From the NCBI GenBank assembly GCA_017858255.1, contig JAFMBV010000020.1:1-46716 (forward strand): a DNA stretch of 46,716 nucleotides. The letters run 5' to 3'. Positions within the stretch are counted from its first letter, which is position 1. Every line of letters starts with the position of its first letter. The notes beneath the pieces were generated by a model. That model searched no databases. It saw only the letters and a program-made list of their open reading frames with translations, and was not told where the DNA came from. The position numbers and the translations under genes are program-made. Origin of the DNA: Bacteriovoracaceae bacterium. GTDB lineage: Bacteria; Bdellovibrionota; Bacteriovoracia; Bacteriovoracales; Bacteriovoracaceae. Positions 1,511-38,336 of the stretch are shown here, in pieces.

Positions 1511-2962
1511 ATGTTCGATACATTAAGTGAAAAGTTCTCCGATGCTTTCAAAAATCTCCAAGGCAAAGGCAAAATTTCAGAAAGTAATATAGAAGCAGCT
1601 CTTAAAGAGGTCAGAACAGCTCTTTTAGAAGCTGATGTTAACTTCAAGGTTGTAAAAGAATTTATTGCGGGTGTTAAAGAAGAGGCCCTCGGTGAAAAGG
1701 TCATAAAAGGCGTAAACCCAGAAGAACAATTTATAAAAATAGTCCATGATCAGCTGGCAGCTATCATGGGCCAAGAAAATCAAGAAGTAGATCTCGATCG
1801 ACCTGGACCCATTCCAGTTTTAATCGTCGGCCTAAACGGTCAGGGGAAGACAACTTTCTCTGGCAAGCTCTCGCTTCACTTAAAAAACAAAAAGAAGAAA
1901 GACGTTCTTTTAGTTCCTGCAGATACTTTTAGGCCAGCGGCTAAAGATCAGCTGATTACCTTGGCCAAAAGCATGGATATGGATTGGTTTGATAGTGACC
2001 TTTCTATGCACCCAAAAGATATTGCCTTGGCCGGTATTAAAGCGGCAAAAGAGCAGCACAAAGACGTTGTGATTATTGATACCGCAGGACGTTTACACGT
2101 TGATGATGAACTTATGGGCCAGCTTAGAGAGGTCAAAGAAGAAATCAAAGACTTGAACCCTGAAGTCTTAATGGTTGCAGATGCTATGACAGGTCAAGAG
2201 GCCGTAAACGTTGCCAAAATCTTTCATGAGGCAATGGGCTTAACTGGGATTGTGCTCTCTAAAATGGATTCTGATGCTCGTGGTGGGGCAGCGCTCTCTA
2301 TCCGCCATGTTACTGGGGTCCCCATTAAATATATCTCTACTGGTGAGAAGATGAAGGATCTCGAGCTATTCCATCCGGACCGTTTGGCCGGAAGAATTCT
2401 CGACATGGGAGATGTGGTTTCACTTGTTGAAAAAGCAGAAGAGGCCATAGATCAAAACGAAGCGGAAAATATGATGAAACGCCTTGAGAAAGGTAAGTTC
2501 ACTGTTGAAGACTTCATGAAGCAAATGGATATGATTAAAAACCTCGGTTCCATGTCTTCAATTCTTAAAATGATTCCTGGCATGGGTGGTGCTCTAAGAG
2601 AAGTTGGTGATTTAAGTCCTGCTGAAGACGATATGAAGCGTATGCGGGTTATTATTGATTCGATGACCAAGCAAGAGCGCCAAGACTATAAATTAATTAA
2701 AGAGTCCCGCATTAAACGTATTGCCTCGGGCTCGGGTTCAACCATAAAAGCAGTAGAAGATTTCATTGCAAAGTTTCGTCAAATGGAAAAGATGATGGGC
2801 GGAATGATGCAAATGATGAAAGGTGGAATGGGTGGGATGCCGGGAATGCCTGGAATGCCTGGAATGCCTGGCCAAAACCCTGGATTTCGCCAAGAACCTG
2901 GTTCTGGAAAGAAACCTAAAAAAGGTAAGAAGAAAGGACCTTGGGGTGGGGGATTCTTTTAG
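1511..2962 (+). CDS. ffh: Signal recognition particle GTPase Ffh (SRP54)
   Basis: Binds 4.5S RNA and signal sequences and, with FtsY, delivers nascent membrane proteins to the translocon. Of 483 residues, the N-terminal helical bundle (about 1-90) is followed by the G domain with GLNGQGKTT (G1), DTFRPAAKDQL, DTAGR (G3) and SKMDSDARGGAAL, then a Met-rich M domain (about 325-435) containing SGSGSTIKAVEDF. The tail carries a Met-Gly-Pro repeat and a basic KKPKKGKKKG end. A Shine-Dalgarno AGGAA lies 7-8 nt before the ATG. It precedes rpsP and khpA, a common bacterial neighbourhood, although a minus-strand gene intervenes. Confidence 0.97.
   Translation: MFDTLSEKFSDAFKNLQGKGKISESNIEAALKEVRTALLEADVNFKVVKEFIAGVKEEALGEKVIKGVNPEEQFIKIVHDQLAAIMGQENQEVDLDRPGPIPVLIVGLNGQGKTTFSGKLSLHLKNKKKKDVLLVPADTFRPAAKDQLITLAKSMDMDWFDSDLSMHPKDIALAGIKAAKEQHKDVVIIDTAGRLHVDDELMGQLREVKEEIKDLNPEVLMVADAMTGQEAVNVAKIFHEAMGLTGIVLSKMDSDARGGAALSIRHVTGVPIKYISTGEKMKDLELFHPDRLAGRILDMGDVVSLVEKAEEAIDQNEAENMMKRLEKGKFTVEDFMKQMDMIKNLGSMSSILKMIPGMGGALREVGDLSPAEDDMKRMRVIIDSMTKQERQDYKLIKESRIKRIASGSGSTIKAVEDFIAKFRQMEKMMGGMMQMMKGGMGGMPGMPGMPGMPGQNPGFRQEPGSGKKPKKGKKKGPWGGGFF
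2834..2869 (+). repeat. Four tandem 9-bp units in the ffh tail
   Basis: Four in-frame copies of GGNATGCCN (2834-2842, 2843-2851, 2852-2860, 2861-2869) encode Gly-Met-Pro four times. The last three copies are identical (GGAATGCCT). The unit is one that could expand or contract by slippage without breaking the frame. Confidence 0.9.
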
Positions 2963-3022
2963 CGCCTACTGAATTTAAAGATGATTGAAGGAATATAGTT
3001 GCAGAAGGTTTCTTAGTATTTC

Positions 3023-3310
3023 TTAGGGTTCTTTAGGTGCCGGCACAACCATTTCAATGGGGTCACACTGATAAGTTCTAGTGCTGTCTCGTCCTCGGAC
3101 TTTCCATTTCTTATAGCAGGTCATGGTAACTTGAATCCTCTCTGTGTCGGCAGGACCGTTGGTATTTATGCGTGCAGTCTGCTCCAAAAGAACCGTATTA
3201 GTGTAATTTAATTTAATTCCAGGAATACGCCTTTTCCGTAAGTCGATTGTCTTACTTATGGCGCTTTGCGCTAGGATAAAGATGAATAATCCAACTAATA
3301 AGCTCTTCAT
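3023..3310 (-). CDS. Small secreted protein of unknown function
   Basis: A 95-residue protein with a clear N-terminal signal peptide (MKSLLVGLFIFILAQSAIS, likely cut after AIS near residue 19). The mature part of about 75 residues is basic and beta-rich in appearance, with two Cys (MTCYKKW and YQCDP) that could form a periplasmic disulfide, and a Pro-rich end. No family recognised. It is convergent to ffh and divergent from rpsP. The upstream sequence TTAGAG before the ATG is a weak ribosome site. Confidence 0.65.
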   Translation of the reverse strand: MKSLLVGLFIFILAQSAISKTIDLRKRRIPGIKLNYTNTVLLEQTARINTNGPADTERIQVTMTCYKKWKVRGRDSTRTYQCDPIEMVVPAPKEP

Positions 3311-32530: not shown

Positions 32531-33523
32531 TTACTCTCCTAAAATACTTTTTAGATAAGTTCTGTTGTTTGTTTTGTTTTCAAAGTTAGAGATTGCCTCA
32601 TCTACTGCACTTTTGACAGTTCCTGTAAGCTTAATCTCGCCTTCTTTATTGAAACCAAAAATTCCACCATTATTTAGAGCAAGTGTTTTCGTGAGGTTTT
32701 CATTAAAGCCCTTGTCTTTGCCTTTATGAGCACTCTCTGGATCACTAAAGCGGCACAATTGGCTTGGGCCACCGTTATAGGCTGACCAGGATCCACGTAC
32801 GATTTTTTTGTAATCAATTTCACCTGTGCTTTTAGAAAAACAACCTAATGCTTCATAATCTCTAAAAGCTTTACGATAACGTCTCATTATATAGGTTAGT
32901 CCATAACGAACCGTTGAGCGAACAGAAGCGTACTTAACTTCTTTTAAAAATTCTTCATAATGCCAAAGGGCGCTTAGTTGCATGATACCAACATCGCTTC
33001 CATCTGAACCACCAACGATTAGCTGACGATACACTCTCTCTCCCGTTAGTTTTGAACAGGGAACTAGAAAGCCATTGTTTGGGTCTCTAGCGAGGCCGCG
33101 GTCATTGAGGGCCATTTTAAAGTGTTTCTTTGCCTTATTTGAAGAAATGCCATCTCCTAAAGAGCGCTTATCACGACAATAGTTATCTTTGGCCTTTACC
33201 TCTCTAAAGTGAATTAGGAGACCCTCTTGATTAGGAACCGTTAGTGCCAAGGCGATAAAGGCATAGTAGGCTTGTGTGTTGCCTTCATTAAGAAATCTCT
33301 TACCCTGACGGTGGGCCTCTTCTAAGAGAATTGTTGTGAGTTCATTTCCATAGCCATCTTTATCCTTAGTCTTTTGACGATAAATGGGACCATTAATTCC
33401 TGCATTTGGATTGATGGTGGCCATAACGTTTTCAAGAAGGTTCGAGAATACGCCTGCTTGGGATTGCATACTTAAAAGTAGCGTTACTGAGCAAATTGAT
33501 TTCTTAATTAGTGATGTCTTCAT
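32531..33523 (-). CDS. Exported lytic-transglycosylase-like protein
   Basis: 330 residues with a signal peptide (about 1-23, ending SMQSQA). The lysozyme/SLT-like core shows a candidate catalytic Glu (VPNQEGLL, E100), SDVGIMQLS (176-184) like the family's G-x-M-Q element, and SAYNGGP (247-253), the hallmark AYNxGP of lytic transglycosylases. The spacing between them is longer than in classical Slt domains, so it is a divergent member. Such enzymes cleave the MurNAc-GlcNAc bond, giving 1,6-anhydro ends. It heads a two-gene unit and is divergent from dacB across 200 nt. Confidence 0.7.
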   Translation of the reverse strand: MKTSLIKKSICSVTLLLSMQSQAGVFSNLLENVMATINPNAGINGPIYRQKTKDKDGYGNELTTILLEEAHRQGKRFLNEGNTQAYYAFIALALTVPNQEGLLIHFREVKAKDNYCRDKRSLGDGISSNKAKKHFKMALNDRGLARDPNNGFLVPCSKLTGERVYRQLIVGGSDGSDVGIMQLSALWHYEEFLKEVKYASVRSTVRYGLTYIMRRYRKAFRDYEALGCFSKSTGEIDYKKIVRGSWSAYNGGPSQLCRFSDPESAHKGKDKGFNENLTKTLALNNGGIFGFNKEGEIKLTGTVKSAVDEAISNFENKTNNRTYLKSILGE

Positions 33524-33727: not shown

Positions 33728-35041
33728 ATGACACACTTCTTTCATCGATTTACTGCCATTCGTCTGGTTCTCGCTATGGGCCTATTGTGGGTGCCCACGC
33801 TGAAGGCCGAGCATCTCGTGCCGAAATTTGTTCAGTTAAACAAAGACTTTAATATTGAAGCGAAAAATCAAAGTTTTTGTTACCTCGACAGTACTGGTGA
33901 GGTTCAAGGACACAATAAATATAAGAGGGTCACGACCGCTTCTGTTTCCAAGCTTATTACTAGCCTTTGGGCGATCGAAGAGCTTGGCACTGGCCATCGT
34001 TATGAAACCAAATTCTTTCTTAAAGGAAAGAAGCTTCATATCAGTGGATCCCTTGATCCTGTATTTTCTAAAAGGAAACTCTTCTTTTTATTGGCCCAAT
34101 TAAACCTTCATGGGGTGAGTGAGCTTGAAGAAATAACTTTTAATAATCAACTGCGCGTTTATAGCAAGGCCGAAAACTATATCGGAGAAGTTTTAAATAT
34201 TACGGAGTCCAGAACAGCTGCAAACCTAAAAGATTTTTGGAATACAACCAAGTGGGAAAAACTAAAGCCAGCTTATCAACAATTTGTAGCGCAAACACCT
34301 CTCTCTTTAAGAGAGCATCTTTCCATTCCTGATTCATGGGAGCAGTTAAATTTAAAAGTAGGGAAGGTCTACTCAGTAGAGAAGAACCCTTTGGGTAATG
34401 AAGGCCTCGTTCATCTTTCTCCCATTTTGGAGCGCTACCTCAAGTTTATGAACATTGTTAGTAACAATTATATTGCAGATCAAGTCTTTGATAAACTTGG
34501 TGGTGAGCTAGGTTTTGATAAGTACTTTCAAAAGATTAAATCGGACTTAGGAAGTGAGATCATCGGCAATGAAGCTGGCAATGAACCAATTGTTAAAATG
34601 TTCACTGGTTCAGGCCTAAACACTACAAAGGAAGGAGCAAGAGTTGATAACTATGCTACTTGTGCTGTCGCTGTTGGACTTATTGAACGTCTTGATAATC
34701 TTTTAGATAATGCAGGAGTTGCTATTCAAAAGCTTGTGGCAGTGCCTGGAACTGATGGGGGTACCTTTCGTAAACGACTAAAGTCACCCCGTCTTAATAG
34801 AACCTTCGTGGCAAAAACGGGGACTCTTTATCACACGTCTGCTCTGGCAGGAATTCTCTATGGTGCGAATAGTAGGGTAACATTTGGAATTTTTCATCAA
34901 CTAACAGGATGGAAAGGTAATGCAAAAGTCGTCCAAAATAAAACGCTGGAATCCTTATGGGAAGCCTATGCGCCTAAAGAGAAATTTGAATACCTCCCAG
35001 AGAAATTCTTCCCTGCGGATACACCCCTGGCACCTCTTTAA
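33728..35041 (+). CDS. dacB: PBP4-type D-Ala-D-Ala carboxypeptidase/endopeptidase
   Basis: 437 residues; signal peptide cut near LKA/EH (residue 27). Peptidase S13 motifs are in place: SVSK (Ser72 nucleophile, Lys75), SNN (245-247), KTG (363-365), plus SGSLDP near 107-112 and the GSGLN segment (294-298). Slightly shorter than E. coli PBP4 (477). It cleaves D-Ala-mDAP crosslinks or terminal D-Ala in the periplasm. In Bdellovibrio two PBP4s (Bd0816, Bd3459) loosen the prey wall so the prey rounds up. Ten nt downstream begins an ankyrin gene, the same pairing as Bd3459-Bd3460. A housekeeping role is possible too. Confidence 0.93.
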   Translation: MTHFFHRFTAIRLVLAMGLLWVPTLKAEHLVPKFVQLNKDFNIEAKNQSFCYLDSTGEVQGHNKYKRVTTASVSKLITSLWAIEELGTGHRYETKFFLKGKKLHISGSLDPVFSKRKLFFLLAQLNLHGVSELEEITFNNQLRVYSKAENYIGEVLNITESRTAANLKDFWNTTKWEKLKPAYQQFVAQTPLSLREHLSIPDSWEQLNLKVGKVYSVEKNPLGNEGLVHLSPILERYLKFMNIVSNNYIADQVFDKLGGELGFDKYFQKIKSDLGSEIIGNEAGNEPIVKMFTGSGLNTTKEGARVDNYATCAVAVGLIERLDNLLDNAGVAIQKLVAVPGTDGGTFRKRLKSPRLNRTFVAKTGTLYHTSALAGILYGANSRVTFGIFHQLTGWKGNAKVVQNKTLESLWEAYAPKEKFEYLPEKFFPADTPLAPL

Positions 35042-35050
35042 TAGGCGGAT

Positions 35051-35893
35051 ATGAGTAAAATGGTAAAAAATCTATTTCTCGTTCTTTTTCTTCTTGGGGT
35101 TGTCTTGTATTTAAAAGATGACTCTGAGGTTCAAAATGGCCTAGTGAAGAATCTTACTCCAAGTATTCTTTCCGGTGTCGTAAAAGATTCTATTTCATCT
35201 CAGGATGCAGCCGTTAAAAAAGTTACGAATCAAAAAATTAGTGAAAGTGAGGAAGAAGATTCTGATGAAATTGATACGGAGATCCATGATGAATCGGCCT
35301 TAAAAAAGCATGGAGTAAACCGTATGATGTTAATGGCCTTTCACGATAAGGGTGAGCATTTTAAAGAGGCCATGGAGCAGTTGAGTCGTGATTCAAAAAT
35401 TACACTGCCTAAACTGAGAGATGATGAAGGAGCAGGGCTTATCCATTGGGCGGTAATGGGGAATTGTTTAAGCTGTTTAAGTATTCTTTTAAAAGAAGGT
35501 CATAATGTTAATTTAGCAAACGTAAGAGGCGAGACTCCGCTCGTTTTTGCCGTAGGGGCGGGAGACTTTGAGGCCACAGAGCTGTTGCTTAAAAGTGGTG
35601 CTAACCCCAATCATTCATTCAATAAAGCTGGTTATACCTTATTAATGGACTCTTCTTTTGAAGGTAATATAGAGGTTTCTAAAGCTCTTCTATCGGCCAA
35701 GGCTTCAGTCAACCTACAAGATAAGGATGGCAAAAGTGCACTTCATTACGCTGCCAAAGAGGGCCATAGAGAGCTAATTAGTCTACTTTTGGAAAAGGGA
35801 GCTAATCCCAAGTTAAAGGACCTTCGTGGTAAAAGGCCTCTAGATTATGCACTTGATTATCATGATCGAAGCATTGAAAAATCCTTTCAGTAA
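35051..35893 (+). CDS. Membrane-anchored ankyrin-repeat protein, probable DacB immunity protein
   Basis: 280 residues: an N-terminal hydrophobic anchor (about 6-21, NLFLVLFLLGVVLYL), an acidic, probably disordered linker (about 22-120) and five ankyrin repeats (about 123-280) with phrases such as RGETPLVFAVGAGDFEATEL and GKSALHYAAKEGHRELISL. The anchor places the repeats in the periplasm. In Bdellovibrio the periplasmic ankyrin protein Bd3460 binds and blocks the PBP4s until they are delivered to prey; without it the predator rounds itself up. The gene order here suggests the same job; direct homology to Bd3460 was not tested. Confidence 0.88.
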   Translation: MSKMVKNLFLVLFLLGVVLYLKDDSEVQNGLVKNLTPSILSGVVKDSISSQDAAVKKVTNQKISESEEEDSDEIDTEIHDESALKKHGVNRMMLMAFHDKGEHFKEAMEQLSRDSKITLPKLRDDEGAGLIHWAVMGNCLSCLSILLKEGHNVNLANVRGETPLVFAVGAGDFEATELLLKSGANPNHSFNKAGYTLLMDSSFEGNIEVSKALLSAKASVNLQDKDGKSALHYAAKEGHRELISLLLEKGANPKLKDLRGKRPLDYALDYHDRSIEKSFQ

Positions 35894-36049: not shown

Positions 36050-37069
36050 ATGAAAACCGCTTTCTCGACCAGGCTGGTCGCTTGTATATTTTTAATCGTC
36101 TTCTTTATTTCATGTGAACAACAGGAAGTTTCAAGTGTTTCCTTGATTGGTGATTCGGAAAACTCAATCGCTTATATAGGTGAAGAAACTAACTTCAGTG
36201 GAACAGTGGCGGGACAAATTGAGTCTATCGAAGTTTATCTAGACGATTCGATCTTAGAAACAATCAGTGTAGAAAGTGGGAAATTCTCTTTTTCAGAAAG
36301 TTTTTTAGAATTGGGCCCACATAAAATGGTTCTGAAAGGAATGAATGCTGGTGGTGAGTCCCTGGCAGAAGCGAACTATAGAGTCTTGGTTGTAGAGAGA
36401 TCAGATGTTGACCATGGAATGTTTGATTTTGGTTTTCCGGAACATATTGGAGAGGCAGCTCGAGATTTATGGGCGACCTATTATTACCTCCCTGAGGTAT
36501 CTTCTTTAAACTCCGGATATCCCCTAAGGAATATGTCTGGAAGCTCTCTAGGCCCAGTTCTAAGCCTTAAGAACTGGTGTTTTGCAGCGATGGAAGGATC
36601 TGTCAGAGTGATTGACTCAAATGGGACAGGCGTTACTTATAACTATGCTGGAACAGCTGATGGTTATGAAGTTGATTGCAAGAAGTTCTTTTCATGGAAT
36701 GTCTCTCGTACCAAGTTTAGAATCGCGAGAGGGCAGTATGGGGATGGAGTCAGAAGGTATAAATTAATTCCTTATCGAACTATTGCGGTTGATCGCACAA
36801 GAATTCCTTACGGTTCAATCGTCTACATTCCTGAGGCCCGAGGTAACGAGATCACACTTCCCGATGGAACCAAAGAAATACATGATGGTTACTTCTTTGC
36901 TGGAGATACTGGAGGGGCGATAAAAGGCACGCATATTGATGTTTACATCGGAGTGGCCAAGAAAAATCCCTTCTCTTGGGTCAAATCGACGGCCAGCCGA
37001 ACCTTTAAGGCCTATGTTGTTGAAGATGAGGTCATTAAAGAAAAGTTAACAAATATCCATTTAAAGTAA
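36050..37069 (+). CDS. Lipoprotein with Ig-like and 3D domains
   Basis: 339 residues. Lipobox F-I-S-C (C24). An Ig/BIG-like beta region (about 35-115, AYIGEETNFSGTV, HKMVLKGMNAGG) is followed by a 3D domain (about 235-315): IAVDRTRIPYGSIVYIPEA and AGDTGGAIKGTHIDVYIG hold the three Asp. 3D domains are the catalytic beta-barrel parts of MltA-type and related lytic transglycosylases and cell-wall proteins. Likely acts on glycan strands from a membrane anchor. AGGAGG precedes the ATG. A bidirectional terminator follows. Confidence 0.83.
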   Translation: MKTAFSTRLVACIFLIVFFISCEQQEVSSVSLIGDSENSIAYIGEETNFSGTVAGQIESIEVYLDDSILETISVESGKFSFSESFLELGPHKMVLKGMNAGGESLAEANYRVLVVERSDVDHGMFDFGFPEHIGEAARDLWATYYYLPEVSSLNSGYPLRNMSGSSLGPVLSLKNWCFAAMEGSVRVIDSNGTGVTYNYAGTADGYEVDCKKFFSWNVSRTKFRIARGQYGDGVRRYKLIPYRTIAVDRTRIPYGSIVYIPEARGNEITLPDGTKEIHDGYFFAGDTGGAIKGTHIDVYIGVAKKNPFSWVKSTASRTFKAYVVEDEVIKEKLTNIHLK

Positions 37070-37074
37070 AAAAA

Positions 37075-37102
37075 GAAAGCCGCGTAAAGCGGCTTTTTTT
37101 TT
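37075..37102. terminator. Bidirectional terminator
   Basis: AAGCCGC (37077-37083) / GCGGCTT (37089-37095) with GTAAA loop, T-run to 37102 on the plus strand and an equivalent run on the minus strand. It closes both the 3D lipoprotein gene and the convergent L,D-transpeptidase gene, whose stop codon lies inside the T-run. Confidence 0.92.
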
Positions 37103-38336
37103 AATGAACCCACCACTTATAGACGCGGTCTTTTATGCCACGAGTTCGTTGGCCATCTTTCATACACTTTTCAAACTCTTTCTCTAGCTTTCTTTTTTCT
37201 CTTCTAGTCTCAGCTTCTTCGTAAGGATTTTCCTCGTAACAAGCAAGGCGTTTTTGGTTGGCCCTTTCTCTCTTTCGCCAATCCATATCGTAGTTAAACA
37301 ACTCATGATGAGTATCACCTGAGCGATCTAACAGAAGGCTTACAGGAGCAGAGCTTTCCCAGTCCTTTGTTGTTTGAACTAAATCATCTCTATCAAGAAT
37401 CCAACGTGGATTACTAGAAGACCCTGCATTGAGTACCTTTTTGTAAGGCTTATTCTTTTTAGGAAAAGGGTGATCTGTAATATCCTCAGTAGAGAATTTA
37501 ACATTTATACTGAGGTGACGATGAGGACCAGCTTTTAAAAGGTCATGCATCATCATAAGGTCAGGAAGTTGCATTCTCATACAACCATGGCTATCAAAGG
37601 CACGAATAAAGGTATCGAGGTTTGGTTGAGCATGAAAACCAATCGCTGTATGACCTTTTGTTGTATTCTTGTCTGTTGTTATTCTTAAAAATGGTTTGCC
37701 AGCGAAATATCTAGGCTTCTTTCTTTCAGAGATCGCTGTCCATTGGTCAAGAAAAGCATTTTCAAAACGAGGAGTAAGAAGGGTAACTTCATCGTTTAAG
37801 ACTTTCTCATCAAAAGAACCAACACCAAGAGGGAAGACCATAATTAAGGCACTTAGGTTATCTCTAACAATGAGTTTTCTCTCTATAAGGCTTACATTTA
37901 GGTCAAAAAGAGTCTCATTAAGATTAATGACATTTTCCACCTGAACGCTAAAGTTTTTTCCATCAAAAAAGGCATTGGCCTGTATAAAGACGTGGCCATT
38001 ACCACTCTCTTTTTTACCAAAAGCCGTTATTGGCAGTACGTAACCACCAGGCCCCTTTTTAGGGTAATCGTGAAGAAAGAGGTTTAGAGTTTCTTCAAGT
38101 TGGTGCTCTTCGCCTACGAAACGATCCCATTTATCTTGAAGCTCTTCCACATCTTTCTCTGAAAGCCCTGGAATGGCACTGGTATATTTGGCAAAGTCCA
38201 ATAAGCGCACGCCTATGGTTTTATTCATAAGGTCTTCGCTTAAGTTAATATTTCGGTAAAGTTGGGCATTTGCTCCAAAACTAAAAATCATGGCCAAGAT
38301 GACCAATGCCCACGGACGAGTTTTCGGTGTCCCCAT
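37101..38336 (-). CDS. Exported L,D-transpeptidase (YkuD family)
   Basis: 411 residues; signal peptide ending FGANA (about residue 24). The YkuD catalytic core is GFHAQPNL (H235) and SHGCMRM (249-255, Cys252 nucleophile). An N-terminal 200-residue region contains a beta-rich LIVRDNLSALIMVFPLGVG stretch, and a charged coiled tail (about 340-411) ends in WKRERAN-like basic/acidic helices. L,D-transpeptidases make mDAP-mDAP crosslinks or attach proteins or D-amino acids to peptidoglycan. In Bdellovibrio, LDTs have been tied to strengthening the prey wall. Transcribed from its own promoter at 38418-38445. Confidence 0.9.
   Translation of the reverse strand: MGTPKTRPWALVILAMIFSFGANAQLYRNINLSEDLMNKTIGVRLLDFAKYTSAIPGLSEKDVEELQDKWDRFVGEEHQLEETLNLFLHDYPKKGPGGYVLPITAFGKKESGNGHVFIQANAFFDGKNFSVQVENVINLNETLFDLNVSLIERKLIVRDNLSALIMVFPLGVGSFDEKVLNDEVTLLTPRFENAFLDQWTAISERKKPRYFAGKPFLRITTDKNTTKGHTAIGFHAQPNLDTFIRAFDSHGCMRMQLPDLMMMHDLLKAGPHRHLSINVKFSTEDITDHPFPKKNKPYKKVLNAGSSSNPRWILDRDDLVQTTKDWESSAPVSLLLDRSGDTHHELFNYDMDWRKRERANQKRLACYEENPYEEAETRREKRKLEKEFEKCMKDGQRTRGIKDRVYKWWVH

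Follow-up and report, generated by a model that had tools for sequence, protein, structure and literature searches.

How an enzyme that cuts peptidoglycan could be exported without harm to the cell that makes it is the question raised by a gene pair found in a 46,716-nucleotide stretch of contig JAFMBV010000020.1 of a Bacteriovoracaceae bacterium (the window). In Bdellovibrio bacteriovorus HD100, the ankyrin protein Bd3460 forms a complex with the PBP4 enzyme Bd3459 and inhibits it, and it also binds Bd0816, a second predatory PBP4. The loss of Bd3460 causes the predator to round itself up, with the enzyme still reaching the prey while the predator damages itself (PMC4686830). The reading of Bd3460 as a shield against the predator's own PBP4s, from which the present analysis started, is thus borne out by experiment. 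Self-protection as a principle and the conserved gene order among other periplasmic predators have already been published (PMC4686830; repeated in PMC8080830). We consider it probable that the window pair is an operon of the same kind, encoding a prey-directed peptidoglycan endopeptidase and a dedicated inhibitor of the Bd3460 type, here tethered to the membrane, which spares the predator's own wall.

The pair comprises two open reading frames of 437 and 280 aa, located on the plus strand in the same frame and separated by 9 nt; both lie exactly where the sequence-only reading had placed a PBP4 gene followed by an ankyrin gene. Their parts are as follows.

33728..35041, plus strand: exported PBP4 (DD-endopeptidase) of the predatory (Bd3459/Bd0816) type, 437 aa, without domain III (from Peptidase_S13, PDB and fold matches, and TIGR00666)
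33728..33808, plus strand: signal peptide, with probable cleavage LKA/EH after residue 27 (from inspection of the sequence)
33878..33880, plus strand: Cys51, half of the TP-domain disulphide, aligned with C45 of Bd3459 (C45-C307 there) and invariant
33941..33952, plus strand: SxxK catalytic motif S72-V-S-K75, aligned with S70ISK of Bd3459; S72 and K75 are invariant among relatives
34460..34468, plus strand: SxN motif S245-N-N, aligned with S251NN of Bd3459; S245 and N247 are invariant
34661..34663, plus strand: Cys312, the other half of the TP-domain disulphide, aligned with C307 of Bd3459 and invariant
34814..34822, plus strand: KTG motif K363-T-G, aligned with K357TG of Bd3459 and invariant
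35051..35893, plus strand: membrane-anchored ankyrin-repeat protein, 280 aa, a probable Bd3460-type inhibitor (from Ank_2, orthology to Bd3460 and predicted docking)
35072..35113, plus strand: hydrophobic anchor, residues 8-21, LFLVLFLLGVVLYL, with no A-x-A type cleavage site
35114..35290, plus strand: acidic linker of 59 aa (residues 22-80), for the most part disordered in the model (from low pLDDT and composition)
35291..35890, plus strand: six ankyrin repeats (residues 81-280), recognised by the paired helices of the model and by ankyrin structural matches over model residues 497-694

Promoter and terminator scans gave nothing useful at the ends of the operon, and promoter-like sites were no more numerous than in shuffled sequence. 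The pair is flanked by three further putative wall-active genes. The product of the first (32531-33523, minus strand) is exported, contains a transglycosylase-like GIMQLS stretch and has no match in Pfam or among PDB sequences; the other two encode a 3D-domain (MltA-like) protein (36050-37069, plus strand) and a weakly YkuD L,D-transpeptidase-like protein (37101-38336, minus strand).

The product of the first gene matches Peptidase_S13 (E 6e-21) in two separate stretches, carries the SxxK, SxN and KTG motifs in an S13 fold and has a signal-peptide-like N-terminus, in agreement with its earlier description as a complete, exported S13 peptidase. Its sole significant matches among the sequences of solved structures (four sequences, E 7e-26 to 5e-24) are Bd3459 and Bd0816, the former on top (5cec, E 7e-26) and the latter (5cer) also among the best. 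The same entries, 5cer and 5cec, are the top matches of the predicted fold (Foldseek/VIA; best Z 31.7), which superimposes on Bd3459 and Bd0816 with Z of 30-32 at 2.3-2.5 A over ca. 370 residues, against Z of 22-26 for other PBP4-type enzymes. In the NCBIfam model of housekeeping PBP4, TIGR00666, the window enzyme scores 51.5 bits, below the cut-off of 107.8 bits, and so do Bd3459 (58.3) and Bd0816 (63.2), both with the same split match, and the enzyme of Halobacteriovorax marinus; a second S13 protein of the window genome, encoded on another contig, reaches 167.3 bits and is the housekeeping PBP4. The cysteines of the TP-domain disulphide are kept, C51 and C312 matching C45-C307 of Bd3459. 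The failure in TIGR00666, the closest folds and the kept disulphide group the window PBP4 with the prey-directed enzymes, which are devoid of domain III (PMC3276566). By sequence, predicted structure and the missing middle domain, it is an enzyme of the predatory type, the counterpart of Bd3459/Bd0816 that it had been taken for. Leu297 occupies the position of N292 in the active-site hairpin of Bd3459, the latter being a detail of Bd3459 that was not used to define the predatory type. We infer that the window PBP4 is used on prey and that the organism is predatory, a lifestyle weakly supported by the presence of HMG-CoA reductase in its genome. Riboflavin synthase was also considered as a candidate predator marker; it is present in the window genome, but also in HD100 and in a Halobacteriovorax-like genome, and is thus uninformative.

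The second gene product matches Ank_2 (E 3.5e-38). When the HD100 genome was searched with a profile of Bacteriovoracaceae ankyrins, comprising the window protein and no Bdellovibrio sequence, Bd3460 came first with 125.6 bits (runner-up 74.9), and the profiles of the anchored and the Bdellovibrio groups aligned in register over residues 90-280, i.e., all six repeats, with a score of 279 (next register 154). The top match together with the in-register alignment identifies the window ankyrin, at the level of sequence, as the counterpart of Bd3460, to which it had been likened from the start. The gene arrangement is also that of Bd3459-Bd3460 (PMC4686830; PDB 5CEC), with a predatory PBP4 gene, a few nucleotides (7 in HD100, 9 here) and a six-repeat ankyrin gene; the identity amounts to 25% for the enzyme and 28% for the ankyrin. 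Bd0816 has no adjoining ankyrin gene, whereas the window PBP4 has one.

In the model, residues 81-280 of the ankyrin form six pairs of helices. Repeat 1 is degenerate and longer and the other five are canonical, so the five repeats counted previously hold for the canonical sequence and fall one short of the model. A linker of 100 residues had been proposed as well; it is acidic, as claimed, and only 59 residues long (22-80), since what looked like the rest of it belongs to repeat 1. Starting with repeat 2, the repeat spacing is 33, 34, 33, and 33, and its sole irregular step, between repeats 3 and 4, coincides with the position of the extended loop described in Bd3460 (PMC4686830), a feature that the two proteins share; by count, the extension is one residue in the window ankyrin and two in Bd3460.

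The two inhibitors differ in their N-terminal parts, Bd3460 having hardly any linker behind a cleavable signal peptide, and the window ankyrin an anchor and the acidic linker. The latter begins with MSKMVKN-LFLVLFLLGVVLYL-KDDSE, a hydrophobic run without a small-x-small cleavage site. The anchor is preceded by a short, positively charged flank and followed by 15 residues with a net charge of -1, and by the positive-inside rule this favours a periplasmic location of the ankyrin domain; the rule is not decisive for the topology, since at least two relatives (L011 and L103) have strongly basic linkers that are unfavourable by it. In relatives the linker is acidic, His-rich or basic, so it is its presence and not its charge that is conserved, and charge was dropped as a defining trait. 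The N-terminal segment might also be an ordinary cleaved signal peptide releasing a soluble periplasmic ankyrin like Bd3460, with the linker as a disordered tail. With just 14 residues, its hydrophobic core is short for spanning a membrane, which would suit such a function, as would the possible cleavage sites of a few relatives, among the anchored ones AFA/VV in L011 and SLG/QS in L014. However, neither the window protein nor most Halobacteriovorax members have a site of the A-x-A type, and long linkers accompany anchor segments and rarely clear signal peptides (one exception, L133), which renders cleavage unlikely. Retention of the ankyrin in the membrane, as we infer from its N-terminus, is the preferred reading.

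Owing to the location of both genes in one frame, the pair could be modelled as a single chain, PBP4-QQAD-ankyrin, in which the TAA and TAG codons between the genes were read as a residue (NCBI table 6) and the anchor with the linker served as a tether; the read-through is a modelling device and makes no claim on the genetic code of the organism. From an input alignment of 29 rows, just four of them paired, AlphaFold2 produced a chain (P0001) with pTM 0.87 and pLDDT 88.4. Stretches of low pLDDT, 444-464 and 474-498 (ankyrin residues 30-50 and 60-84), fall mostly in the linker, and values below 50 occur only around it. For an ankyrin folded but unplaced, a pTM of ca. 0.6 was estimated (the enzyme alone makes up 410 of the 694 residues). 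A control chain of similar size, the PBP4 of locus L049 joined to the product of its neighbouring 3D-domain gene, gave pTM 0.61; its 3D domain folded poorly, so the control bounds the share of PBP4 in the pTM and is neither a clean negative nor a proof of specificity. By pTM alone, a value in which the interface face relative to the active site is not visible, docking of the ankyrin on PBP4 is predicted with confidence; the lack of a predicted interface, which the sequence-only reading had named as grounds for refutation, did not occur. The docking geometry would be that of the crystal complex 5CEC, and by analogy with Bd3460 the window ankyrin would inhibit its PBP4.

The proposed mechanism is as follows. 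PBP4, with its active site wide open and no domain III, would be exported through Sec, being meant for cutting the cross-links of the prey wall. The N-terminal anchor would fix the ankyrin in the inner membrane of the predator, and the flexible linker would let it reach into the periplasm and bind freshly exported PBP4 as Bd3460 binds Bd3459, so that the active-site face would be covered and the predator's own wall spared. As the anchored inhibitor could not leave with the enzyme, PBP4 would become active only once outside. The predicted docking would fit equally well a protein that acts as a holding chaperone or export adaptor, retaining PBP4 close to the inner membrane before passing it to the export route, with inhibition being incidental, and anchoring would suit such a hand-over. 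Nevertheless, delivery of the enzyme to the prey persists without Bd3460, the soluble homologue, and it is the predator that is damaged (PMC4686830), while Bacteriovorax has the enzyme and no neighbouring ankyrin; we regard this function as very improbable, and inhibition by a tethered ankyrin is retained as the more probable explanation.

The gene downstream of PBP4 was read for ca. 100 distinct enzymes from relatives, and in ca. 50 of these loci, distributed across two classes, it codes for an ankyrin protein, so the pairing is not due to chance. It had been judged significant from the window sequence, and its presence in predatory relatives had been set beforehand as a test; it was found there, including Halobacteriovorax. 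That the pair governs the bacterium's own wall turnover, unrelated to predation, is suggested by the further putative wall genes adjoining it, but is hardly credible given the separate housekeeping PBP4 above the family cut-off, the lack of domain III as in prey-directed enzymes and the close relatives of the pair in Halobacteriovorax.

The form of the ankyrin varies between lineages. Bdellovibrionaceae and their relatives have a soluble ankyrin with a cleavable-looking signal peptide and a linker mostly of 0-22 residues (50 in one case). One Bacteriovoracaceae clade (ca. 20 loci) has an anchor without a clear cleavage motif and a linker of 30-109 aa, so the "different mode of tethering" suspected in the window protein is a clade-wide trait that extends to Halobacteriovorax. 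The clade takes in the window genus, Bacteriovorax sp. BSW11_IV, H. marinus 36_234_T64, and a genome (G008) that looks like H. marinus SJ, whose predatory enzyme is named Bms2102 in PMC3276566. The H. marinus predatory PBP4, 46% identical to that of the window, is likewise followed after 9 nt by an anchored ankyrin gene (L009 and L038); the ankyrin is just 30% identical, and its linker is His-rich as well as acidic. A small group of Halobacteriovorax sp. has the ankyrin in the short signal-peptide form. In one MAG (L061, 5362-5964) the ankyrin gene overlaps the end of a divergent PBP4 gene and codes for a lipobox-like N-terminus (LISC), possibly a lipid-anchored version. No ankyrin adjoins the enzyme in the genus Bacteriovorax and several further genera, which shows that it is not needed universally. 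Several Bacteriovorax-type genomes have two predatory-type PBP4 genes, neither of them beside an ankyrin gene (L041 and L042, L049 and L057, L044 and L054, L040 and L051, L039 and L050). A link between the conservation of helix alpha9 and the presence of the ankyrin was rejected, as partnerless enzymes keep the A...QN motif too (by eye).

In the enzyme tree (a quick method, SH-aLRT support only), the enzymes of anchored pairs form one group with 98% SH-aLRT and one ankyrin-less row inside, apart from the enzymes with soluble partners and from those without partners. The anchored type needs two changes on this tree, the simplest being one origin and one loss. Enzyme and ankyrin co-diverge (rho 0.76; Mantel 0/2000), which species history alone could also yield.

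No description of the membrane-anchored form was found in searches of the full-text literature, which covered few subscription papers. It is about an even bet that self-protection takes at least three forms, soluble in Bdellovibrio, tethered in the Halobacteriovorax clade and the window genus, and absent as a neighbour in Bacteriovorax, to which a lipid-anchored one may have to be added; retention in the tethered form would be hard-wired, export itself separating the enzyme from its inhibitor. For Bd3460, retention and stripping were proposed in 2015 to account for its staying behind (PMC4686830). A clade with a built-in tether would make it simply testable how Bd3460 remains while Bd3459 and Bd0816 enter the prey. 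The distribution also raises the question of self-protection in Bacteriovorax, in which the enzyme or enzymes are kept and no ankyrin gene is in their neighbourhood.

Several single loci differ from the common arrangement. In L014 (G006, 1438-2757) the predatory PBP4 gene contains an in-frame TAG, being a pseudogene or an assembly error, and the anchored ankyrin gene downstream is intact. L102 (G092, 2654-3232) belongs to the anchored clade but has no ankyrin, and its PBP4 is followed by a phosphatase-like exported protein (HCAGGADRTG, by eye). A 3D gene lies directly after an ankyrin-less PBP4 gene in the Bacteriovoracaceae loci L039, L045, L049, and L052. Finally, a catalase-like gene (by eye) is paired with an ankyrin gene in L171, L178, L179, and L187, from Bacteriovorax, a Halobacteriovorax-like genome and, twice, HD100, which resembles katB-ankB, the catalase-ankyrin pair of Pseudomonas.
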